A DNA stretch of 25,986 nt from a virus: positions 1-25,986 of IMG/VR virus record IMGVR_UViG_3300008952_000265; one strand, written 5' to 3'. The notes under the pieces were generated by a model. The model did no database searches and was not told where the DNA came from. It saw only the letters and a list, made by a program, of their open reading frames with translations. Positions 937-13,003 of the stretch are shown here, in pieces; positions within the stretch are counted from its first letter, which is position 1, and the number at the start of each line of letters is the position of its first letter. Both the position numbers and the translations under genes were made by a program.

Positions 937-3216
937 CTATCTAAAAATCCGTCTATCGTATCCCTTGCGAAAAGTGGTTACGATCTCATCCATCTCAATC
1001 ACCCTTTTCCATATCATGACCGACTTGATTTTCCCGTCGAAATTCTGCGGTACGTCGTTCGTTCCGATTGCGCTCCCATGGGTGGTTCCGGCACCGGTCC
1101 CGCCGTTCTCGGCAGAGAAAGTGGTCCGACCAAAAGACAGTCCGGCAGCTTCATCCAACAGCGAAACCATTGTTTTCGACGCCACGTTTGCGTATATAGA
1201 GGCAGTAGCATTCGGGAGGTCAAGCGTACCCAGAATGAAATACCATTCCCCGGTAGAAACGACATCTGTGTTGCTGGTTAATCCTTCAAATGAATCACCA
1301 ATCTCTGACCTGCCGCCCCATTGGATAGATCCACCACCATCCGTGTGGACGTTCAAGGCGACCTTGCTGAAAGATGAGCCAGCTTTTATGGGAATATTCA
1401 GTATTGATCCGACGGTCATATTCTCAACATAAATCCAGGCACCGACACTTACCCCGGAATGGCCACCAAGATCTGAAGACAGGTTGGAGAGCCCAGAGTG
1501 GTCGCTCGGTAGATCAAATCCCTGTGATGCGGCTGGATCAAAGCTCTGGCAGAACCCAAACCCGTCGTCTATGTCGTAGACAAGCGTGGGCGCTGCGGGT
1601 GCCAGCTTCTTTTGATAGAGATATCCACCAGCAGCGTCTAAGCTATAGGGACCATTCAGTTGGTCAATGACAAACTCTGGCTCCAGTATAAAGTTGGCAT
1701 CTGGCCTGGAAACGCCACCTTCCTGCACCGGGGAAACCTCTTGGAGTATAAGATTTATGGACCTGTCGTTGGAGGAATACGTCCCACCGTGCTGGACATA
1801 TGCTTCAGAATCGACCTTGCCGATAACTTCTTTAGGGTGCTGGCTGCCGATGCAATCGCCCGACACCAAGAGTCGTGGCAGCTTAGAGAATGCCCGGTCT
1901 TGCGGGGGTATGAAGTCGTACCCATAAAGACCCTTCTGGTATATCTCGGCAATCTGGTAAACATCAAGAGCCTGCCTGTAATACCTGAAGTCGTCTACGC
2001 TGCACAGAGCGCTGTCGCCAGATATGGTCGGCACGGCTGCCTTGTCGCCTATATATATATTTTCAGCAAACTGTGCTGAATCTGGTGTTGCCGTATCCGT
2101 CCCAACGAGTACCCCATTTTTATACAGCGACAATGTGGGTGTCGTCGTCGGGGATGAATACACCATGGTCAAGTGTGCCCACTCGTCCGCGACTAGCGTG
2201 TCGGGATCGTTAATCGCAGCGCTGGTGCCATCTAACTGGTAAAACACTCTGGCGTTTCCGGTTGCCATAGAAAACACCCAGCCATGGGTGACGGCAAACT
2301 GCTCTGCCAGATCTGGGGAAGCAACGAGAAGGGATCCGGCAGATGGGTTTACCCAGAAGCATACGGTTATTTCATCGTCAGTGTTTAGCTCTATTGGGTC
2401 GCCAAGAGAAACAGGGAACTCTACGTTGTCGGTTGCATCTGTATTTAAAAGAGCACCGTCGCCGCTTTTGCGGGTCAAGTTGCCAGCCGCAATGTTGTCG
2501 GAAGTCGGAACTCCCTCCACGCCATTAACCCTGTCCGCGAAGTCACCCGGATAGTCAAACGGGCACTGCATAACGACGCCGTTGTCGTTTTGCCACGCAT
2601 AAAGATCGGCAACAAAGGATGCGTCCACATTAAATGGAAGCAGGACTAAATCGTCCATATCTTTCGATACAGTCCCGGCGGGAAAGTTTGTATAGTCAAT
2701 GGTCACGATGCCATCTGCTACGGTGATAAAAGATGTCACCGCTGTGGCAACCCCATCCTGGTATGTGTCACCGGTCGCAGTTTCAACATGCTGATGCCAT
2801 TCTCCAGACCCAGTGTTGTCTGCCCAGACAATAACCGTCCACTTCTTTGTCGGAAATCCAACGTCAAATGACATGTCTGCGGTAAAACTCGCATGACCGG
2901 TTCCGAATCGCTGTAGCCCGCCGCCTTCGACAATGGACTTGCTCGCCAGAGACGTTGGTGCCACCCCAGAGTCGCTCCAGAAGTTTGTATTCAACGGGAA
3001 GTGGTGCCCGCGACCCATCAGAAGGCCCTCGACCGTATCGGCCACAGAGGGCGTCTGGAACAGCATGCTGCCGCTCCAGGTTCTTGGATTCATTCTTCTG
3101 CGAATCAGTGCCCTGTTCGTAAAAGACTTGCCAGAGTTCCCATATTGCGTCGATGTTTCCGACATGCCGCCGTTTACAATCGGAACATTCCATCCGTTGA
3201 TGTTAAAGAAGCTCAT
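937..3216 (-). CDS. Tail protein with two LamG/concanavalin-like domains
   Basis: A 759-aa structural protein. Residues 1-90 (NGWNVPIV near the start, later SFTNRALIRR and RTWSGSMLFQ) match the N terminus of the preceding 336-aa gene, so both share a probable attachment module. Residues about 215-430 form a LamG-like domain (TVCFWVNPSAG, EWAHLTMVYS, LSLYKNGVLVGT, IYIGDKA, VDDFRYYRQAL, EIYQKG). Residues about 545-759 form a second one (VSVGAWIYVENM, GEWYFILGTLDL, KIKSVMIWKRV, FRKGYDRR). Such domains occur on phage tail fibres and typically bind carbohydrate. The start overlaps the preceding stop as ATGA. A tail-tip or fibre role is inferred from the gene order after the tape measure. The receptor cannot be read from the sequence. 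Confidence 0.82.
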   Translation of the reverse strand: MSFFNINGWNVPIVNGGMSETSTQYGNSGKSFTNRALIRRRMNPRTWSGSMLFQTPSVADTVEGLLMGRGHHFPLNTNFWSDSGVAPTSLASKSIVEGGGLQRFGTGHASFTADMSFDVGFPTKKWTVIVWADNTGSGEWHQHVETATGDTYQDGVATAVTSFITVADGIVTIDYTNFPAGTVSKDMDDLVLLPFNVDASFVADLYAWQNDNGVVMQCPFDYPGDFADRVNGVEGVPTSDNIAAGNLTRKSGDGALLNTDATDNVEFPVSLGDPIELNTDDEITVCFWVNPSAGSLLVASPDLAEQFAVTHGWVFSMATGNARVFYQLDGTSAAINDPDTLVADEWAHLTMVYSSPTTTPTLSLYKNGVLVGTDTATPDSAQFAENIYIGDKAAVPTISGDSALCSVDDFRYYRQALDVYQIAEIYQKGLYGYDFIPPQDRAFSKLPRLLVSGDCIGSQHPKEVIGKVDSEAYVQHGGTYSSNDRSINLILQEVSPVQEGGVSRPDANFILEPEFVIDQLNGPYSLDAAGGYLYQKKLAPAAPTLVYDIDDGFGFCQSFDPAASQGFDLPSDHSGLSNLSSDLGGHSGVSVGAWIYVENMTVGSILNIPIKAGSSFSKVALNVHTDGGGSIQWGGRSEIGDSFEGLTSNTDVVSTGEWYFILGTLDLPNATASIYANVASKTMVSLLDEAAGLSFGRTTFSAENGGTGAGTTHGSAIGTNDVPQNFDGKIKSVMIWKRVIEMDEIVTTFRKGYDRRIFR

Positions 3217-4223
3217 GGCAGCACCGGATATCTGGTTGGCTCGCCTTCTCCCTCTGAGAGAACGGAACCACCAAGACGAAGCACTGGAAGATTGAACGGG
3301 GAAACCGGTACTGCAACATCCGGGTCATACTTATACCCTGGTAGGTACTCGGTAAGCTTGAAGGAGACAGTTTTGGCGTTGTTGGAGCCCGGCTTCTGAA
3401 TGTAGGCTATAGATGTGACCTCGCCAGTTACGGGGACACTCGGCTCTGCCACCACGGGAGTAGTGTATCCTGTGCCCACGCTCAACTGCTCGATAAAGTA
3501 GTCCGGCATTACATACGGAACAATGAACATGTCCGATATTTTTGCGGTCAGTGACAGCCCTGTTTCGTTGAAGTCAAACTCTATCGACAGGTAGAGGACT
3601 CCTTCACGAACTTCAGCAGAATAGCCAATCCCACCAACGGGAATAGACTTACCAGTGCTAATATACGTATTATCATAACTTTGTTTTACCCCGGCGAGAT
3701 AAACCTCACCATCAGATCTAAAGAACATTGGGTCATATTCCGTGGTGTCATCATTATAAACAAGGAACATGGCTGTCCACTTGTCGTCTTGAAGTTGACA
3801 GTCCCACGCAAACATGTCGGAAAAGTATGTGGCAAAAGGGGCGTTGAAGTTCACCTCAAGACACCCGCTTGACCAATAGTCCCCACCTGTTCCAGAGAAT
3901 GTCAAGCCGTCTGTCGGGCTGGTGGCGAGTTCCATCAGCTCGCGGCCCGTGTAACCGGGGACCAAAGACATGCCCGTGTCGGACGTCGAGCCGTTTTCTA
4001 GTGCCCAGTAATGCCCCTCACCGTTAATCAGGTTGATGAACCCGTCGGCTATATCAAAGTCTTGGAATAGCGCAGTCGCTTCCCATGTTCGCCTGTATCC
4101 ACGTCCAGCATTGCGAAGCTGCCCACCGAAAGAACGGCTGACACCTTGTATTTTATCTTCACCGCGTGAACATTGGTTCATCACGATTGGGATATTTATG
4201 CCGTTTAAGATGAGGAACTGCAT
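3213..4223 (-). CDS. Distal tail/tail-tip structural protein
   Basis: A 336-aa protein directly after the tape measure. The frame is open further upstream, but ATG 4223 is the best start: the tape measure stop and this start form TAATG, and GGAGGCGGAAGG sits 5 bases before it. The N terminus (NGINIPIV, SRSFGGQLR, RTWEATALFQ, INGEGHYWAL) is clearly related to that of the following 759-aa LamG protein (NG.N.PIV, SF.NR, RTW...LFQ, G.GH...L). Here it continues into a beta-rich body without an obvious LamG repeat. Position after the tape measure suggests a distal tail or tail-tip component, but similarity to a named Dit or hub family is not evident. The last codons overlap the next gene as ATGA. 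Confidence 0.78.
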   Translation of the reverse strand: MQFLILNGINIPIVMNQCSRGEDKIQGVSRSFGGQLRNAGRGYRRTWEATALFQDFDIADGFINLINGEGHYWALENGSTSDTGMSLVPGYTGRELMELATSPTDGLTFSGTGGDYWSSGCLEVNFNAPFATYFSDMFAWDCQLQDDKWTAMFLVYNDDTTEYDPMFFRSDGEVYLAGVKQSYDNTYISTGKSIPVGGIGYSAEVREGVLYLSIEFDFNETGLSLTAKISDMFIVPYVMPDYFIEQLSVGTGYTTPVVAEPSVPVTGEVTSIAYIQKPGSNNAKTVSFKLTEYLPGYKYDPDVAVPVSPFNLPVLRLGGSVLSEGEGEPTRYPVLP

Positions 4224-7200
4224 TATGACCTTCCGCCTCCGCCTTCGTTGCCACCCCACCAGCCAGAGCCTGACTGATGACTTGGGAACGGAGTTCCTGC
4301 CTGGGCCATTTGGTTGCGCGTAGACCTCTCTGCAATCATATTGGCGAGCTGGTCTGGGTTTGCCGCATCGGCAATGCTGAGTTCGTTGATGTTGATGTTC
4401 ATGGTGTTGTTGCCGGAAGTTATGTTTCCGCCAGCCTGTCTTCCGCCCATCGCGGCCCCCATTCCTCCTCCACCCTGGAATGCTTCCTCCGGGCCAAGCA
4501 GTGCAAGGCCGAGGGTGTTGGTCAAGGAGTCGAATGCGTTGCCAAGCTCGTTTGACATGCGATCCAGTGGGTGGCCAAAAATATCCTCCCAGTTGTCTGG
4601 CCTTATAACGTCATCAAGAGAACCTATCGCATCAGTCAAAGACCCTAGAGACTGCGCCGTTCCTGAGCGAACAGCCTCAGCCATGCGGCCAAAGAAGTCC
4701 GTAGCGTCAATATCCATAATGCTGCGACCACCGCCCATGTCAACTGCACCACCTTCGCCGTCAGCATCCATTGCTTTGAACCGAGCGAGGTTTACCTTGA
4801 ATCCAGATGGGACGTTGGTGAGCTGTTCGCCGAATTCTTTGGCCGAATCTGAAGCATCCCGGCCTATCTCGTCCAAAAGGTTAAACCTGTCTAAGCCGTC
4901 CTGAAATGATGAATTCTCAACTTTGTCCCGAAGTGACTCGAATCGCGAGAGATCAATAGGCTCAGAAATATCGCTCACAAGATCGTTTATATTTCCCTGC
5001 ATATCAATAACCCACTGGTCCCAATCATTAACCACCGCCCCTAGACCAGCATCAGTCGTTAGCACTGCGGCCTGGTCGATAAGATCGGCACCCAGGCCGC
5101 CACCTGGGACAAGATTATTCGCGAAAGTGCCCACGGCAGTAAGTATGGAAACCATTATGTCTCTCAACATTACTCGAAAGTCCAGAAACCCCTGCGCGGC
5201 GTTAAGCATATTCTCGTTAACTTTAGCGTGAACTTGCGCCCCAAACACCATAATGTTGTGCATATGCGCCAGCGCGGTTATTACATCAAGAACAACAAGC
5301 GCAAGCTGCTTGAACACATCATACAACGTCTCCCCGAAGTCCAAGTCACCCAGGGAGTCAGCAATGATAACAAAAGCCTCCATCACCATGTCAAAAAGCC
5401 CAACAAGCGCGAACAGATTTTCATAAAATGGACCCATGGCGTAAATAACCCGGTCGATAGACGCAGCAAGTGCATCCATAATGCGCATCCATGGGGTTCT
5501 GTGGTCGTCGTCAAGTTCTGTGACTCCGGGGTCATCGTCGAGAGCAGAGCCAAGAATCTTTTTATTCTTAAGTTCCTTGGTGCCAAGAGCAAGAAGGAAC
5601 GAGGCTATGGCACTACCCGCAGCGGTTGACAATGCCGCGATTATGGTTGCGGGAGCTGCCACCAGGGCTGCTGCAAAAGTGGCTACTGCGGCAATGGCAA
5701 CAGGTATCCATACATACCACTGTCCCACTGCTGACGCTCCAGCGGCAATGGCAATAATGATCGCCCCGATAGCGATTATGGCCATCCATATGGCCGGGAT
5801 AAGGACCGCGCCGATTGCTGACCCGAGAATTGTCACCGTTGCCGCGACAGAAGAGAAAATTTTAGCTGAACTCGCGAATGCGCCCTGAAACCTTTTCTCC
5901 GGCACCAGAGTGGAAGCCTTTTTTGCCAAATCCCCAATAGCCTTATAGAAGGAGTTCACCTTCTCAACAAAGCCCATAACCAGACTCTCAAACATGTTCC
6001 CGATAGACTTTCCTATTTGCGATCCTATCATTGGGTCGCTTGCGAAAGACCCGATAAGGCCGCCAAGCGCAAGGCCAATAGACGAGCCCACCCCGGAAGT
6101 TTCGCCGCCCACCTGCCCAATCATGTCAGAGAAAACATCTCTTGCCTCTGCGAGATTCTTTGAATCGAATTCCTTTCCGAGCACTTTGGTTTTCAGCGTT
6201 TGACTCTCCTGGTCAAAGCTGGTCGTTGAGATTGAATCAATGACAGAAGATATCGACTCCTGCAGCGAGGCAAACATAGAATCTGCGTCCGCTGAAAGAC
6301 TAGAGAAGGGTATGGAGGATAGAGACTTGTTTACTTTGTCGAACCCGATCTTCCCGAGAGACGTGGCTTCTATTATGGAATCTTCTATATCTGATATGTT
6401 TCCGCCCCCGCCAAGTGTTTTAAGGAATTCCGTTTCGCCTCTTATGTCCGCCCATGATTTTAGCTCTTGGCCCTCTTCCTTCAACGTGGTCATGCGGAGA
6501 AGATGGTTCTTATTTATTACGTCCGCCTCTATTTTGGATTGGGCGAATGAGGCTCTTTGTACCTCCTGGTAATTGGCCAAAGCCTGACTGTACTCACTCT
6601 GGCTCACTCCGCCCTCAGTCTGGATCTTCTCAGCCCTCATCCGGACAAGTTGCTTGGCCAGGGCGTTCTCATCAAAGCTCAAATAAGTCTCTTGAAGCTT
6701 GTCAGATGGGATGTCTCCCCGGACAGCCGCAGTGTTGTCAGACACGGCAGACGCAAGGGTTTTCATTTCTAGCCCAAGACCACCAATGTTATTAGAAAGC
6801 TCAGAGAAGCCAAGGTTGTTCATTGTCGCAACCATAAGCTCTGACGCTGACGACTGAAGGCCAAGCGCCTCGTTTAATTCTAAAAGTTTTATTTCGTGCC
6901 GTCTTAATGCTTCAGCGTTATCCATGGCACCCTTTACCATAAGGTCGATGCTCTTCTTTTGCTCGTCAACGCCGTGAAACAACCGCATGGTTTCCGGGGA
7001 TCGGGACTCTAAAACAGCTATCTCAAGCTGTATTTCATCCCTTTTTTCGGACAAGGCTGCCAGTGAATCTTGATAGGACTTTTCATGCTTATCTACGGAA
7101 GAAGATGCAGACTCAATCTTTTTCTTGAAGTCTTCTTGGGCTATCGCCATCGCGTAAACAACGTCTGTCAGGTCACCAAATGCAATCTGAACTCCGCCGA

Positions 7201-10048
7201 CACTTTTCGAAAATTCATTAAGCCTGTCTATGTGCGGAGCCATTCCCTCTGCTATTTGGTTTACCTGGTCATGGGCAGCACTGCTGAACCTGACACTGCC
7301 GTCCGCAGCCTTCACGAAAGAGGATGCCAACCTCATAGCCTCCATGCCCACCAGGCCAACGGCTTTTCTGAATTTACCAATCTCCTCTGAACTTCGCCCT
7401 GAAAGCTTACCCCCGCCAGGCTCTTTAGCTATGCGGTCAAGCCTCTTTCCCGCATCAGCAATAAATTTATCAATAAAGGCACCAGCCTGAATTGATGGTT
7501 TCATGGACGGCTTAAAGGCAGATATAAGTTTGGCAGACAAAGACCTTATTTTTCCGCCAATCCAGTCGAAAAAAGAATCCCAGAGCTTGCCAATTTTATC
7601 AACCCGGTCTTCCTGCTTTGCAGACGCCTCCGTTGCCTTAACAAGCAGTTTGCCTATGCTTTTGTCCCCTTCGTTGATCATATCGTTGATTTTTTGAAGA
7701 GTTTTCTTGAGGCGCTCCATCTCAAGCTCTTTAAGGGGGTCTAGGAATGCCTGAAGGACAGGAGAAACTTCTCTTGCCTTTTCCACTATGGCTTCAGTCC
7801 GACCTTCCGTTTCAACGGTGACCTTAACTTTTGCGGCGATTTCCTCAATGTTCGATACATCCACCTTTATTTCACCACGCAATTGCTCTAGCTGGTTAAC
7901 GAAATTGTCAAGGTCTTCTTCGGCCTTCGCAATCTGTTTCGGTGTGAGGTCAACCCGGCTAAGGAGCTTTGACGTCGTCGCTATATTTCCTACTATTTCG
8001 TTCAGCCTATCCTCATAAACATCCATTTGAGCGGGGTTTAATGCTTCTTCAAAAAGGCCACCGCTATCTTTTCCTATCGAATCAAAAAGTTCTTTGTAAA
8101 ATTTCTTAAAGTCACTCACCTTGTCAAACGACGTTGTCTCTGCGCCAATTTGTACCGTCAGAGCCTTCTGGAAAAGACCTGAGCTTGCAGTGCCAAGAGC
8201 CGCCATGTCATCCATCATCGCATCAAGGCGCAAGTCGGCAGACGAGAGCCTCATCGCAGCATCCGCTCCCTTGAAAATTTCTTGGTTGAGTTCCATTCTG
8301 TCTATTTCGTTAGACAGGCCGACAAAGGCTTTCATCTGTTTTATTATGCCCATAAACCCAAACGATGCCGTATCCAGGGCGTAGCCAAGGTCAATCGCCG
8401 CCATCCCCTGCCTACCAAGTGCCGCATTGAATAATTCTGCACCCAGGAGGGCAGTTCCTACCACCAGACCGAACCCCGCGACTGCAAAAGCGGCCCCTCC
8501 TGCGGCTGTGGCCATTGATCCGAAAGTGATGCCAAGGGTGGAGCCGACATATCCGTAAAGTGCAAATGCTGCAATGGAACCAGTAGCAACAACTGCAAGC
8601 GAGGCAAATGCAGCGCCTACAGCAAGGACCACCAACGCCGCCTGCCCATAATTCGCTATAAATCTTATAAGAGTACCATCTCCCGCAGAAAAGGAATTCA
8701 CTACGTCCTTAACCCTATCGACAAGGTCATTCAATTTTGGCAGCAGAAGGTCGCCAATGGCAATGGCAAGGCTTTCTACATTGCTTTTTAGTATCTTGAG
8801 TTTTCCGGTTGTCGTCTCGTGCTGGATATTCTGGAGGAAGGTTGTGATGTCGTCAAACTGAGCCTGTTTTGTCGCTACGGACAAGTCGATAAAGGCATCG
8901 GTGCCCTGCTTAACCAGTGCGGCCATGCCTGGACCGGACCTCTCACCAAACACCTCCATAAGGTCCGCGACGTATTGGGTTGTCTTCCCAGTCTCCGCAT
9001 ACTTTTTCTTCATTTTCTCAAGAATCGCGATAACTCGAAGCATCCCAGATGCTTGACCCTTCTGCCTTTCCCTAAGCACTTCCGTTGTGAGCCCTAAGCG
9101 CCCCATCGCCTTGGCTGACTGTTTGGTGGGTTTCACAAGGGCAGAAAAAGCTCGCTTAAGTGAAGTACCGGCAAGAGTGCCCTGTATGCCCACGTTGCCC
9201 AAGAGGCCGATGGATACAGCAACGTCTTTAAAGCTTACGTCAGCGGCGCTGGCAACCGCGCCCACAATCTTAAATGCTTCACCAAGCTGGAGCACATTCA
9301 CATTGGAATTAGTGAATACGCCAACAAGGATATTGTTCACATCGGTCAACTGCCTACCAAGCTCTTGTGCGACCGCAGCCTGGTCCACCATGCCAGCAGT
9401 GGTCCGTGTCAGCTCCGACCTCACATTAACCGCAGTAATGCCAAAGGTGGACATAATGTTTGTTAAAACATTGCCGCTTTCAGCCATTGTTATATTGGCC
9501 GCAGTGGCCAGCTTCCCGACCTCGCCAATGGTTGCAATCACTTCGGCAGCATTGAAACCGGCCATTGCCATAAATTCCATGGCCCCTGTGACTTCCTTGG
9601 CGGTATGGATGGTAGTGTTCGCTGTCTTAATAGCCTCTTTGCGCATAGACTTAAATGCGCCTCCAAAGGCGAGCGAACTACCGGAAGCAACAGCAGCAGC
9701 CTTTGACATCCCAAGCTCAAAGTCTGCCGATATCTTAACGATGACGGAGGCTGTCGCCGCAAGCGCACCAAAGGCTGCCACGGCACCAATGGATATTTTC
9801 CTGAAAGACTCCGACAGGCCGGTCATGTTGGACCTAAGCGACCCCAATCGCTTCTCTAGCGTTTTTGCGCTAGACGCCATCGACTTTGTTCCCTTGCTGA
9901 ACTCCTTTGACGACTTCTTGGTTGCGGCTGAGGTTTTCTGAAGACCAGCCACAAGCTTGGTAATCTTGTCAACAGCCTTAGTGAGGTCTGTTACGGCTTT
10001 TTGGACATCAGCGTTTAGCTTTACAGTTACTTCTCTTGCCACAGTCAT
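4223..10048 (-). CDS. Tail tape measure protein (TP901 type)
   Basis: A 1941-aa protein, by far the longest here, in the standard place after the tail chaperones. Residues 1-60 are Lys/Thr/Ser-rich helix. Residues about 105-420 carry the TP901 tape-measure signature (MAMAGFNAAEV, AANITMAESGNVL, later VFGERSGPGM). A hydrophobic stretch lies near residues 465-535 and a longer, multi-helix one near 1390-1485 (AIWMAIIAIGAIIIAIAAG and following). Such segments are thought to help DNA cross the host membrane. Between them are long Glu/Lys coiled-coil helices. The C terminus is Gly-rich and ends NININELSIAD plus a Gly tail. By the known scaling of about 0.15 nm per residue the tail would be up to roughly 290 nm. 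The start has AGGTGAG upstream. Confidence 0.95.
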   Translation of the reverse strand: MTVAREVTVKLNADVQKAVTDLTKAVDKITKLVAGLQKTSAATKKSSKEFSKGTKSMASSAKTLEKRLGSLRSNMTGLSESFRKISIGAVAAFGALAATASVIVKISADFELGMSKAAAVASGSSLAFGGAFKSMRKEAIKTANTTIHTAKEVTGAMEFMAMAGFNAAEVIATIGEVGKLATAANITMAESGNVLTNIMSTFGITAVNVRSELTRTTAGMVDQAAVAQELGRQLTDVNNILVGVFTNSNVNVLQLGEAFKIVGAVASAADVSFKDVAVSIGLLGNVGIQGTLAGTSLKRAFSALVKPTKQSAKAMGRLGLTTEVLRERQKGQASGMLRVIAILEKMKKKYAETGKTTQYVADLMEVFGERSGPGMAALVKQGTDAFIDLSVATKQAQFDDITTFLQNIQHETTTGKLKILKSNVESLAIAIGDLLLPKLNDLVDRVKDVVNSFSAGDGTLIRFIANYGQAALVVLAVGAAFASLAVVATGSIAAFALYGYVGSTLGITFGSMATAAGGAAFAVAGFGLVVGTALLGAELFNAALGRQGMAAIDLGYALDTASFGFMGIIKQMKAFVGLSNEIDRMELNQEIFKGADAAMRLSSADLRLDAMMDDMAALGTASSGLFQKALTVQIGAETTSFDKVSDFKKFYKELFDSIGKDSGGLFEEALNPAQMDVYEDRLNEIVGNIATTSKLLSRVDLTPKQIAKAEEDLDNFVNQLEQLRGEIKVDVSNIEEIAAKVKVTVETEGRTEAIVEKAREVSPVLQAFLDPLKELEMERLKKTLQKINDMINEGDKSIGKLLVKATEASAKQEDRVDKIGKLWDSFFDWIGGKIRSLSAKLISAFKPSMKPSIQAGAFIDKFIADAGKRLDRIAKEPGGGKLSGRSSEEIGKFRKAVGLVGMEAMRLASSFVKAADGSVRFSSAAHDQVNQIAEGMAPHIDRLNEFSKSVGGVQIAFGDLTDVVYAMAIAQEDFKKKIESASSSVDKHEKSYQDSLAALSEKRDEIQLEIAVLESRSPETMRLFHGVDEQKKSIDLMVKGAMDNAEALRRHEIKLLELNEALGLQSSASELMVATMNNLGFSELSNNIGGLGLEMKTLASAVSDNTAAVRGDIPSDKLQETYLSFDENALAKQLVRMRAEKIQTEGGVSQSEYSQALANYQEVQRASFAQSKIEADVINKNHLLRMTTLKEEGQELKSWADIRGETEFLKTLGGGGNISDIEDSIIEATSLGKIGFDKVNKSLSSIPFSSLSADADSMFASLQESISSVIDSISTTSFDQESQTLKTKVLGKEFDSKNLAEARDVFSDMIGQVGGETSGVGSSIGLALGGLIGSFASDPMIGSQIGKSIGNMFESLVMGFVEKVNSFYKAIGDLAKKASTLVPEKRFQGAFASSAKIFSSVAATVTILGSAIGAVLIPAIWMAIIAIGAIIIAIAAGASAVGQWYVWIPVAIAAVATFAAALVAAPATIIAALSTAAGSAIASFLLALGTKELKNKKILGSALDDDPGVTELDDDHRTPWMRIMDALAASIDRVIYAMGPFYENLFALVGLFDMVMEAFVIIADSLGDLDFGETLYDVFKQLALVVLDVITALAHMHNIMVFGAQVHAKVNENMLNAAQGFLDFRVMLRDIMVSILTAVGTFANNLVPGGGLGADLIDQAAVLTTDAGLGAVVNDWDQWVIDMQGNINDLVSDISEPIDLSRFESLRDKVENSSFQDGLDRFNLLDEIGRDASDSAKEFGEQLTNVPSGFKVNLARFKAMDADGEGGAVDMGGGRSIMDIDATDFFGRMAEAVRSGTAQSLGSLTDAIGSLDDVIRPDNWEDIFGHPLDRMSNELGNAFDSLTNTLGLALLGPEEAFQGGGGMGAAMGGRQAGGNITSGNNTMNININELSIADAANPDQLANMIAERSTRNQMAQAGTPFPSHQSGSGWWGGNEGGGGRS

Positions 10049-10050
10049 AA

Positions 10051-10518
10051 CTACTCACCTTCCCCGAAACCGCTAAAGTCAACCTCTTCATCATATTGTA
10101 TCGCCTCTGGCTCCCGCATACCAAGGATTACGAACGGGTCGGCGTCACTGCCAGCACTTCTGACCTCTGCATCCTCCACCCTACGTCGCATCATAGCCTT
10201 AAAGTCTCCGATGGACCCCGGCGACATTGATACGCGTTGGTTCTCATAGTCTGAAGCAACACCCTTCTCTTTAGGGAGAAGGTCTTTTGGTTTAATGCTC
10301 TTCTTGGACCAGCAATTCATGATATTGGCACACGCCCACGCAAGCATCTCCATTTGCCGCTTTTGCTGCACCTGATGTCCCTTAAACATAACACTAAGTT
10401 CGCGCAAGGTAACACCCGTCCCAATATCATCAGGTCTGCCCCAGAATGATTCTGGGGTCATACCTATTTCAACAGCAGAACTCAGGAGTTCTTGGAAGTC
10501 GAAACGCTTTTGCTCGCC
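10051..10518 (-). CDS. Tail assembly chaperone T extension, made as a -1 frameshift GT fusion
   Basis: This frame is -1 relative to chaperone G and is open from the slippery site at 10518-10524 to the TAG at 10051. It gives 155 residues fused to the first 137 of G (GT about 292 aa). The first ATG inside it, at 10461, has no convincing ribosome site, and the residues before it are conserved-looking (FDFQELLSSAVEIG). With MTPESFWGRP they form the family pattern 'A...lGl.P..FW..t..El', which supports translation through frameshifting rather than from 10461. GT proteins of siphophages bind the tape measure and recruit tail tube subunits, and are absent from the virion. A 2-base gap separates it from the tape measure. 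The frameshift is inferred and not measured. Confidence 0.85.
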   Translation of the reverse strand, partial: GEQKRFDFQELLSSAVEIGMTPESFWGRPDDIGTGVTLRELSVMFKGHQVQQKRQMEMLAWACANIMNCWSKKSIKPKDLLPKEKGVASDYENQRVSMSPGSIGDFKAMMRRRVEDAEVRSAGSDADPFVILGMREPEAIQYDEEVDFSGFGEGE

Positions 10519-10928
10519 TTTTTTGGCGGGACGAAAGGGTCCGGCTCTTTTTCTTCACCGTCTTCCTCTTCGTCATCCCCGTCTTCTTGTGCGCCGGGGA
10601 TACCCAAGGCAACTGCTTCCATAACTGTTGACATAAGCTCACCAAGGTCTTCACAATCGTCAATCCAACGACCAACCTTGGCCAGTGTAAGCCGCGCTTC
10701 CTTGCCCTTTTTACCGGCATATTCATGCGCAACGCCCACTAGAATCGCCTCACGCAGAGTGCGAATGCCGAGCTGAGACTCTGAAAGGATATTCGTAATC
10801 GAAGACCCAAGCCTTTCCTCCAGCATCGCAATCTCGTGAGTACGGAAGCGAAGGGTATGCATCCGTCCGCCCATGCGCACTTCAACCATACCCCTCGTTT
10901 TGTTTTTTAAACCTACAACACTTCCCAT
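10482..10928 (-). CDS. Tail assembly chaperone G (GTA gp10-like)
   Basis: A 148-aa protein. ATG 10928 is preceded by AGGAGG at 5 bases. The N-terminal half (RGMVEVRMGGRMHTLRFRTHE, IAMLEERLG, then a helix with AILVGVAHEYAG) resembles the small tail chaperones placed between tail tube and tape measure in siphophages and gene transfer agents. The C terminus is very acidic (residues about 115-128 are almost all D/E/G) and then turns Lys/Ser-rich, where the slippery codons lie. In known systems G is produced in large excess over GT and coats the tape measure during tail assembly. The last 11 codons are G-specific. Confidence 0.85.
   Translation of the reverse strand: MGSVVGLKNKTRGMVEVRMGGRMHTLRFRTHEIAMLEERLGSSITNILSESQLGIRTLREAILVGVAHEYAGKKGKEARLTLAKVGRWIDDCEDLGELMSTVMEAVALGIPGAQEDGDDEEEDGEEKEPDPFVPPKKASKSVSTSKNS
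10518..10524 (-). promoter_or_regulatory. Programmed -1 ribosomal frameshift site, A AAA AAG
   Basis: In the G frame the codons read CCA AAA AAG GCG, giving the heptamer A AAA AAG, identical to the efficient E. coli dnaX slippery sequence. Slipping back one base lets both tRNAs re-pair on AAA AAA and continue GGC GAG CAA in the open T frame. G ends 12 codons later at 10482. A short GAACT-CCTG-AGTTC hairpin lies about 24 bases downstream and overlaps the G stop region. It is weaker and further away than the dnaX stem, so its stimulatory role is uncertain. Confidence 0.88.
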
Positions 10929-10980: not shown

Positions 10981-11580
10981 TTACGCAGTAAGCGTAACAA
11001 TGTCTGTGCCGCTTAGGCGAAGTGTTACATCGAATGTAGTCACATCGTCAAGCGGGCTACCTGGAGAGAAGCTTGTCGAAAACGCCTTGCCATAAAAAGC
11101 ATTTGCGCCGACTGTGCCCTGACCCAACGGTGTGCCACGATTCGCCACGGATATATTCGACGGATCTGCATCCATAACAAACGCTTCGCCGTCAGGAACA
11201 TACCAGAAATGGAACAAAAAACTGTTCAAAGCACAAACCAAGACACCCATCGATTCTTCATCTTCTTCATCATATCGAAACGATACGTCCAATGTTTCAT
11301 CGTGAAAGTTTGGTATGTATGTCCTAGCTGTACCATGTGTTGGGCTGGCTCCACTGGTGTTATGCACCGTTGTTTCCAGCTCATCGACGTTACCGTTCAT
11401 GGTAGCGTCAACAAGCGCCCCCGTGGCCGTACCGGGGTTTGCGGTAAGGCCATCGTTCTCAAGCTGGTCTAGCGCAAATGGCTCCGTGTCATTTGTTGCG
11501 CTCCCGGACAAGGAAGTGACCGGAAAGCCACCCTCACACGCAACCCACAATTCTCCTAAACGTCCTGCTATTCCTGACAT
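10981..11580 (-). CDS. Major tail tube protein, second copy
   Basis: A 199-aa protein in the tail tube position, before the chaperone pair. It is a close paralogue of the gene just upstream. Both begin with .IAGRLGE.W, share a run of 37 identical residues in the middle (from TMNGNVDELE to PNFHDET), share FRY.EED...M...LCA.NS.LF.FWY.PDGEA, and end with KAFSTSFSPGSPLDDV (Q for K in the other copy) and FDVTLRLSGT. This copy carries an extra loop of about 18 residues after PDGEAF (near residues 135-155). Tail tube subunits polymerise into the hollow tail. Which copy is the main one, or whether both enter the tail, cannot be told. It follows the upstream copy by 9 bases; the start has AGGAGG in that gap. 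Confidence 0.85.
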   Translation of the reverse strand: MSGIAGRLGELWVACEGGFPVTSLSGSATNDTEPFALDQLENDGLTANPGTATGALVDATMNGNVDELETTVHNTSGASPTHGTARTYIPNFHDETLDVSFRYDEEDEESMGVLVCALNSFLFHFWYVPDGEAFVMDADPSNISVANRGTPLGQGTVGANAFYGKAFSTSFSPGSPLDDVTTFDVTLRLSGTDIVTLTA

Positions 11581-11589
11581 TTTTTCCTC

Positions 11590-12114
11590 CTACAGTGTAT
11601 TAATTAAAGTTCCGCTGAGTCTCAGCGTCACGTCAAAAGTGCCAACGTCATCCAGCGGACTTCCCGGAGAAAAGCTCGTCGAAAACGCCTGGCCACGAAA
11701 CTGGTTTGCGCCAGTGGTTGCAGCATCATATGCCTCACCGTCAGGGCGATACCAAAAGTTAAAAAGCCAACTGTTCATTGCACACAACAAAATGGCCATG
11801 GATACACGATCCTCTTCGTTATACCGAAAAGTTACATCCTGGGTTTCATCGTGAAAGTTGGGGATATAGGTTCTGGCTGTGCCATGCGTGGGAGAAGCTC
11901 CGCTAGTATTGTGAACAGTGGTCTCCAATTCGTCTACGTTGCCGTTCATGGTTGAGTCAACCAGTGCCCCCGTTGCGTACCCGGTCGCCGGGATAATCGC
12001 CGCCGGAAAAGACGTAACGCTCCCCGATGGCGGAACATACGGGTTAGGGTCTACATCAATATCCGTGTTAAACTCCGCCCAAAATTCTCCTAATCTACCT
12101 GCTATTGCTGCCAT
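11590..12114 (-). CDS. Major tail tube protein, first copy
   Basis: A 174-aa tail tube protein, transcribed before its 199-aa paralogue. It has the same N-terminal motif (AIAGRLGEFW), the same 37-residue identical core and the same C-terminal STSFSPGSPLDD...FDVTLRLSGT. The segments that differ are the N-terminal 15-45 residues and the loop after PDGEAY. Although the protein core is identical, the DNA differs at nearly every third codon position there, so the copies diverged long ago or came from different phages. The start at 12114 has CAGGAG about 7 bases upstream, just below a small hairpin. Structural tube role is inferred from position before tail chaperones and tape measure. Confidence 0.85.
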   Translation of the reverse strand: MAAIAGRLGEFWAEFNTDIDVDPNPYVPPSGSVTSFPAAIIPATGYATGALVDSTMNGNVDELETTVHNTSGASPTHGTARTYIPNFHDETQDVTFRYNEEDRVSMAILLCAMNSWLFNFWYRPDGEAYDAATTGANQFRGQAFSTSFSPGSPLDDVGTFDVTLRLSGTLINTL

Positions 12115-12128
12115 TTCTTACTCCTGCT

Positions 12129-12142
12129 GGGGAAATATCCCC
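12129..12142 (-). other. Small hairpin just before the tail tube ribosome site
   Basis: GGGGA and TCCCC pair around a 4-base loop, placed a few bases upstream of the CAGGAG ribosome site of the first tail tube gene. There is no U-run after it, so it is not a terminator. A 5' hairpin here could stabilise the abundant tail tube message or mark an RNA processing point. This is inference from position only. Confidence 0.35.
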
Positions 12143-12149
12143 TATGTCA

Positions 12150-12272
12150 CTAAGGACAAATCCCCCCAAAAGGTTCACAAAAAAGGGTGGCAACCGTTAG
12201 GTCACAGCAATCACAAGGGGGGGAATGATTGCCCGCAAATGCGCACCCCATAAAAAGTTTATTGTCCTTCAT
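12150..12272 (-). CDS. 40-aa Cys-rich small protein between tail terminator and tail tube genes
   Basis: A short reading frame that fills most of an otherwise empty gap. Its ATG overlaps the tail terminator stop as ATGA, and GGAGG lies 4 bases before it, an unusually good ribosome site for translational coupling. It ends at TAG 12150, 35 bases before the next start. The 40 residues contain six cysteines (10, 20, 22, 23, 32, 39), with a CDCC core, one histidine at 16 and Pro/Gly-rich ends. The C.C spacing would suit metal binding or disulfide bonds. No family is recognised. The DNA includes a 7-base G/C run and the inverted repeat GCAATCA/TGATTGC (12207-12232). Coding is supported by the start context and overlap; function is unknown. 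Confidence 0.6.
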   Translation of the reverse strand: MKDNKLFMGCAFAGNHSPPCDCCDLTVATLFCEPFGGICP

Positions 12273-13003
12273 GTTACCTCCACGGTTTTTGCGCCAAGGT
12301 TTGTCAATGTTGACTCCCAAAGCTGATAGGTAATGCCACTTACCGTGGCCGTGGAGGTCATAGAAAACGTACTTGCATCGCCTACTATATTGAACGCAAC
12401 TGCCCCTTCTGTAGAGAAATCGACAGGGAATGCGTAATACATGGATTCGCCAACGCCGGACGTTAAAGTCATCGTCCTATATCTAAATGGAGCATATTCG
12501 TTGGTGGCAAGAGCCTCAATAAAGGCTGCACCAGTGCTGGCGGCAGGCCCGATGCCCCAGTATACAACTCTTTCCTGCAGCGCATATGTCAAGTCAACGC
12601 TGACGACCCAGTTGTGGTGCCCATCCTCGTCCATGCCCAAATACATCGGTGTCCCAGTAACAACCTTTGAGTCAATATACCCCTCAGGCGTCTTTCTATC
12701 GAGCAGATTGAATATCGCGTTAGCTAAAATCTGGCCGCCTGGGAAATCAAAAGGATTTGATCTCACATGAACCTCAACCGTAGGGTAGACAATCTGCTTT
12801 CGGTACTGCCCGCCAACCATAAACGTAACAGGATTGAATCCACCACTTTGCAGGCAAAACGTAGCCTGATGCGGGATACCTGGACCTTCGCTTGGGTTTA
12901 TGTACGGCCTGACTGGACCGGCAAACAAATTTGCCCCAGTTGAAAATTGAGGTAGCGTCGAGCTAATATGGTTAACCATGTCTATATCTGGCTGGATAAA
13001 CAT
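12269..13003 (-). CDS. Tail terminator protein with extra C-terminal domain
   Basis: A 244-aa protein in the tail terminator position, between the gp10-like neck protein and the tail tube. Residues 1-155 fit phage tail terminator/minor capsid proteins: ATFCLQSGG followed by P..F..GGQY, then YPTVEVHVRSNP, GGQILANAIFNLLD and, later, NWVVSVDLTYAL. Terminators cap the finished tail and join it to the head. Residues about 165-244 are an added beta-rich region (TSTATVSGITYQLWE) beyond the usual length of roughly 130-160 aa, perhaps an accessory Ig-like or decoration domain. The start is adjacent to the upstream gene, sharing base 13003. The end overlaps the small Cys-rich gene. Confidence 0.72.
   Translation of the reverse strand: MFIQPDIDMVNHISSTLPQFSTGANLFAGPVRPYINPSEGPGIPHQATFCLQSGGFNPVTFMVGGQYRKQIVYPTVEVHVRSNPFDFPGGQILANAIFNLLDRKTPEGYIDSKVVTGTPMYLGMDEDGHHNWVVSVDLTYALQERVVYWGIGPAASTGAAFIEALATNEYAPFRYRTMTLTSGVGESMYYAFPVDFSTEGAVAFNIVGDASTFSMTSTATVSGITYQLWESTLTNLGAKTVEVT

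Follow-up and report, generated by a model that had tools for sequence, protein, structure and literature searches.

The window analysed here (an IMG/VR virus record; 25,986 bases) carries on its minus strand a set of late genes aligned in the order capsid, connector, neck, tail terminator, tube A, tube B, two chaperone-like genes and tape measure. The tail terminator gene (12269-13003, minus strand; PF12691-like) is the conserved 5' neighbour of the tube genes, and TAC1 (10482-10928, minus strand), a tail assembly chaperone-like gene of PHROG 2115 with a Phage_TAC_11 match below the Pfam cut-off, is the conserved 3' neighbour. The tape measure-like gene (4223-10048, minus strand; 1941 aa) was identified by its length and position. 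In 18 locus maps, incomplete loci included, the order terminator-tube(s)-TAC1-TAC2-tape measure was constant, and a tube gene was located between the tail terminator and the chaperones/tape measure in every locus long enough. The terminator of the window has about 100 additional aa at its C-terminus, a region missing from the short-tube relatives L018 and L029. Downstream of the tail genes, the region 937-3216 (minus strand) encodes a 759-aa protein with a Laminin_G_3 (concanavalin A-like) domain, possibly a component of the tail tip or fibre. Another record, G001 (57,291 bases), encodes tube and tape measure proteins identical to those of the window.

Tube gene A (11590-12114; 174 aa) is the first of the pair in transcription order and tube gene B (10981-11580; 199 aa) the second, both being located on the minus strand with a gap of 9 nt; these coordinates, strand and lengths were correct as first given. 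A is shorter and faster evolving, and B has a shorter branch in the tree and carries an extra exterior-type loop. The two are separate genes, each with its own start and its own ribosome-binding site, AGGAG for A (12115-12131, minus strand) and AGGAGG for B (11581-11596, minus strand). The TAG stop codon of A lies within 11581-11596 (minus strand), in frame with B and with no further stop between them in the window, and read-through from A to B, if it occurs, would yield a T5-like double tube protein. Programmed read-through into an A-B fusion was rejected as a candidate: L009 and L015 lack the in-frame arrangement with a single TAG that the window and L006 show.

The assignment of A and B as tail tube genes, proposed from the letters of the DNA, was upheld by the fold of predicted models and by synteny. 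Both models show a beta-sandwich with one helix and a long beta2-beta3 loop, and both retrieved by Foldseek the solved siphophage tubes, including monocin MttP, phage 80alpha, R4C, RcGTA, lambda gpV and SPP1, with best E values of 4e-5 for A and 2e-8 for B from models of moderate confidence (pLDDT 70 and 64, lowest in the loops). PHROG 1407 ('major tail protein') gave weak matches to B (E = 0.006) and A (E = 0.73). Pfam gave no match for A or B, a PDB sequence search of the tube proteins gave no match worth reporting, and sequence-profile alignment to the R4C and JBD30 tubes gave nothing significant. In fold, gene order and stacking loop, A and B resemble the siphophage major tail proteins of the GTA/SPP1/80alpha fold. 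Except for the presence of two copies per genome, in two clades, they are ordinary members of this group.

Each time viral_contigs was rescanned, the same few records came up. No sequence relative of the tube was detected among 50,697 records of named phages (tblastn, E 0.01), and no relative was found in bacterial or archaeal genomes. Tube gene pairs were found in the clade of the window (the L003-L011 set, in which some records end at the pair) and in a second clade (L012, L014, L015 and L016), and a single tube gene, after the whole records were checked, in L013, L017, L025/L026, L018, L028, L029 and L030. All the records of both pair clades that are long enough to tell carry two copies. 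The genes of pair-bearing loci are 9-55 nt apart on the same strand, each with a good ribosome-binding site, and A and B are in frame only in some pairs. In the protein tree the two pair clades stand apart, and a single shared duplication for both was rejected by the protein data (AU 3e-5), by a test that coordinated change can mislead; together these results suggest that the tube gene was probably duplicated twice, separately. Longer tails were also considered as the reason for two genes and found to be unsupported, the tape measure frame of the single-copy record G002 being 2066 aa as compared with 1943-2255 aa for the pairs. L010 and L005 are contigs of one metagenome, both breaking at the tube pair, and the end of L010 overlaps with the start of L005. 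The capsid protein of L013/L024 is 98% identical to that of the window, while the terminator (49%), the single tube gene (48%) and the chaperones are 48-53% identical, indicating an exchange of head and tail modules.

A and B are 70% identical and share, as already recognised in the sequence-only reading, one run of 37 identical residues, TMNGNVDELETTVHNTSGASPTHGTARTYIPNFHDET, corresponding to residues 55-91 of A (11842-11952, minus strand) and residues 60-96 of B (11293-11403, minus strand). This core takes in the last part of beta2, the whole of the beta2-beta3 stacking loop and the first part of beta3. The beta2-beta3 loop of known tubes touches the adjacent ring and makes most of the ring-to-ring contacts (PMC8718954). 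Within the core, 25 of the 37 codons differ between A and B, 24 of them at the third base, and the fourfold sites differ at 14 of 17 positions. Independent draws from the phage's own synonymous usage would give 23.2 differing codons per 37. The silent sites of the core are indeed saturated, and the serine codon switch (TCT/AGC) is present, but the claim that nearly every third position differs was an overstatement, the count being 24 of 37 (65%). For the whole pair, codon comparison gave a dN of about 0.2 and a dS beyond NG86 estimation (3.6-4.0 by ML). Because most of the 37 residues are invariant throughout the family, single-copy relatives included, the identity of the core is largely a matter of ordinary purifying selection. 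Specific to the pair within the core is NTSGASPT, a loop that differs from phage to phage and is the same in both copies here.

Silent saturation rules out a fresh duplication, in agreement with the first reading, which had left a choice between an old duplication under strong selection and a second copy derived from a related phage. The silent codons of the window and L009 favoured the orthology A:A and B:B and rejected per-phage pairing (AU p = 0.003), as did the third positions alone (p = 0.014), although what these silent data reject is per-phage pairing only, the third topology still standing. The fourfold difference was 0.84 within the L009 pair as against 0.50 between window B and L009 B, indicating that the duplication is older than the window-L009 split. 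The old duplication under strong selection is thereby substantiated. A recent import of the second copy is contradicted, since L009/L011 carry an orthologue of each copy at the corresponding place and the pair predates the split; an ancient import may have taken place. Neither copy is decaying in any pair-bearing relative, as the first reading required.

When the window was compared with L009, six amino-acid columns were found to be matched per phage, whereas the control pattern had none. When sequences were simulated along the orthology tree, about 0.9 matched columns were expected, and six were reached in none of 500 simulations, under two models. For these two phages the protein data prefer per-phage pairing and, taken alone, leave orthology unrejected (AU p = 0.105 and 0.054). 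Four of the six matched columns are located within the patch SFSPGSPLDDV, which covers the end of beta5 and the tip of the beta5-beta6 hairpin (residues 147-157 of A, 11644-11676, minus strand; residues 170-180 of B at the same position, 11041-11073, minus strand). The equivalent patch of L009 is GFPVGSPLDDT in both copies. SFSP is present in almost all the outgroups, indicating that three of the changes are derived in L009, and position 157 is V or T among the outgroups, leaving the direction of that change unpolarised. Over a 13-codon patch of L009 (STGFPVGSPLDDT) the protein is identical in both copies, while the genes use different codons at 12 of the 13 positions, and each of the four informative silent sites in the patch follows the A:A/B:B orthology. 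On account of these codon differences, gene conversion is unlikely to be the cause of the matched patch, and the pattern argues for selection that keeps the A and B proteins matched. The effect concerns six columns in one pair of lineages; quartets within the second pair clade showed no coordinated change.

The assembly elements were more alike within a phage (106 of 120) than between orthologues (90 of 120; p = 0.012), and the exterior loops showed the reverse relation (38 of 94 within a phage, 71 of 114 between orthologues; p = 0.002), this contrast being defined after seeing the data, from comparisons that are not independent, and taken as supportive only. The copies do differ, as first noticed, in the exterior-type loops beta1-beta2 and beta4-beta5.1. 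The beta4-beta5.1 loop of B contains a specific insert (about residues 135-154; 11119-11178, minus strand), which A lacks and which the L009 orthologue of B shares.

Based on the tube fold, the conserved place in the operon, the age of the pair, the intact state of both copies and the coordinated protein change without DNA exchange, we consider it reasonably probable that A and B are divergent, functional major tail subunits derived from an old tandem duplication, most likely within the same tube. The coordinated evolution favours such a two-subunit tail, in which A and B probably co-assemble. Beta2, the beta2-beta3 stacking loop, beta5 and the beta5-beta6 hairpin would have to fit both subunit kinds; for this reason the elements of ring assembly would stay alike, and any change in them would happen in both copies together. 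The hairpin would face the stacking loop of the next ring, a ring-ring contact that we infer from the topology of the models, and the same topology places the loops beta1-beta2 and beta4-beta5.1 on the predicted exterior. There they would be free to diverge, and the tube exterior would then carry two kinds of decoration. A constant stacking loop, a co-changing hairpin and free outer loops are the pattern expected if A/B rings or subunits stack in one tube. In JBD30 two subunits of the adjacent ring receive the stacking loop between their residues 217-227 (PMC11445458), and in R4C the stacking-loop residue W36 meets K107 of the next disc (PMC10276861), K107 being located in the last, C-terminal hairpin. 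The coordinated patch would correspond to this same beta5-beta6 hairpin, by position rather than by sequence profile. A more far-reaching model is offered tentatively, and we regard it as doubtful: an obligate two-component tube of mixed A/B hexamers or alternating rings, made from paralogues with genes of their own and at least two independent origins, with a ring-ring interface that co-evolves between them and with expression set by the new RNA leader described below.

In our estimation, a division of roles in which the tube consists of one copy while the other makes up a specialised ring, terminal or initiator, is unlikely. Afp5, found alongside Afp1, is a protein of such a special ring. 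In T4, gp19 polymerises on a hub made of gp48 and gp54 (PMC8718954). In such an arrangement both proteins would still need matching ring-ring surfaces, and the shared stacking loop would be kept because the special ring must stack on the tube rings; the faster evolution of A than of B in the tree also fits this possibility. Initiator and tube proteins, however, are usually far less alike than 70% with an identical stacking loop, so that A and B are closer to each other than the usual initiator/tube pair, and two adjacent genes, each with a strong ribosome-binding site, are arranged as for two abundant proteins. The coordinated change could also be driven by a shared outside partner, such as the terminator, the distal tail protein, a chaperone or the tape measure, instead of A-B contact. 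Marks like those of co-assembly would be expected from such a third partner, and likewise from a special ring.

We consider it highly unlikely that gene conversion made the copies alike and that the shared residues are relics of old tracts. Residue sharing per phage is the usual sign of conversion, and the protein tree pairs L009 A with L009 B, but the codon differences and orthologous silent sites of the L009 patch speak against it, as does the saturation of silent sites in the 37-residue core of the window. The converted tract would have to be very short and older than the silent saturation, yet younger than the window-L009 split. Very improbable is the reading that the second copy was acquired from a related phage and that recombination now and then yields such a pair, whose members have no function in common. 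Recombination of tail modules does occur among these phages, as seen for L013/L024, and transfer was proposed for one of the two genes of Gordonia DJ (PMC12859696). However, each clade keeps both copies in constant position and order, their fourfold-site base composition is similar, no pair-bearing relative has a lost or broken copy, and coordinated change needs joint function.

The usual view of a major tail tube is that of a homopolymer made up of hexameric rings. For the window pair, sequence evolution alone provides a testable answer to how the functions of the two copies relate: coupling between them at the assembly interface, together with freedom on the surface. If this answer is true, the pair would be a naturally occurring case in which to study hetero-oligomeric tube assembly. 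Actinophages are already known to have two genes for major tail proteins per genome, and the window pair is a variant of this arrangement. Homologous copies in one operon, group-wide, have been described for Gordonia DJ and Microbacterium EL and also for the clusters AM, AU, AW, BI and CC; all these pairs are known from annotation only, the authors leaving overlapping versus divergent function open (PMC12859696, PMC11080557). As in Gordonia DJ, two homologous genes are fixed in the group, but the DJ copies are 43% identical with a gene between them, whereas A and B are adjacent and 70% identical, with an identical stacking loop and coordinated change. The window tubes gave no tblastn match to the actinophage pairs at E 0.01 in the phage collection, indicating the same kind of arrangement and not, by sequence, the same lineage. 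The open-licence papers searched included none on closely matched tandem tube genes or on coupled evolution.

SPP1 builds one tail from gp17.1 and gp17.1*, frameshift isoforms at about 3:1, the latter with an added FN3 domain (PMC8718954). One tube core with two exterior forms would be common to both systems, the mixing of A and B being a proposal; SPP1 uses one gene and a frameshift, in contrast to the two genes with different surface loops in the window. In T5 pb6 and phiCbK, tube domains are fused in double form and assembled into trimeric rings (PMC8718954), and two differing tube domains could likewise alternate around a ring of A and B. The two domains of pb6 are within one chain, whereas A and B are separate chains and their in-frame layout is not conserved. 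By this analogy a tandem tube gene pair represents a possible stage before fusion to a double-domain tube like T5 pb6.

Ahead of the tube genes, directly 3' of the terminator gene, an untranslated and structured RNA leader was identified. Its 5' domain (12184-12249, minus strand), supported by covariation, includes P1 (GGGGUG/CACCCU), P3 (9 bp with a seven-C loop) and the P4 hairpin. The 3' part (12115-12183, minus strand) includes a conserved G-run, which could pair with the C loop of P3, and then a predicted hairpin ending just 5' of the ribosome-binding site. A similar fold was found in 12 family loci, comprising the window and its clade (L006 5332-5397, L009 1325-1390 and L011 3979-4044), the second pair clade (L012 4812-4872, L014 5282-5342, L015 5024-5087 and L016 5885-5946) and single-copy loci (L013 5881-5933, L017 2676-2728, L018 5163-5230 and L025 5880-5932), and it was present once per genome in all nine matching whole records. 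Changes on both sides were observed for 13 of the 21 pairs, and covariation exceeded all 500 shuffles and all slid controls, counts that lean towards the model to which the alignment was fitted; compensatory changes are visible in the raw alignments. The folding energy is not unusual (z = -0.75). Rfam gave no match for the leader at gathering and none at E 10. A wider RNA search gave 31 pattern matches in viral_contigs, of which those scored outside the tube family were near chance in the covariance model, and matches in bacterial genomes were scattered over unrelated phyla and read as chance from the pattern alone. A 56-aa Cys-rich ORF in the leader was judged to be spurious on account of its overlap with the RNA element and its absence beyond the near clade. 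The natural guess is that this putative leader controls tube expression; it is also a clue, separate from the tube pair and open to testing, to the way in which phages adjust the amount of a very abundant virion protein.

In L018 the leader is located ahead of two small genes that precede the tube gene. Small genes encoding related-looking proteins of 112-117 aa are found directly ahead of the tube gene in the short-tube relatives, one or two per phage: a single gene in L029 (5552-5905) and tandem pairs in L027 (5220-5558 and 5569-5922) and L028 (2014-2358 and 2368-2712). The tandem small genes of these last two phages possibly represent another duplication at the same spot.
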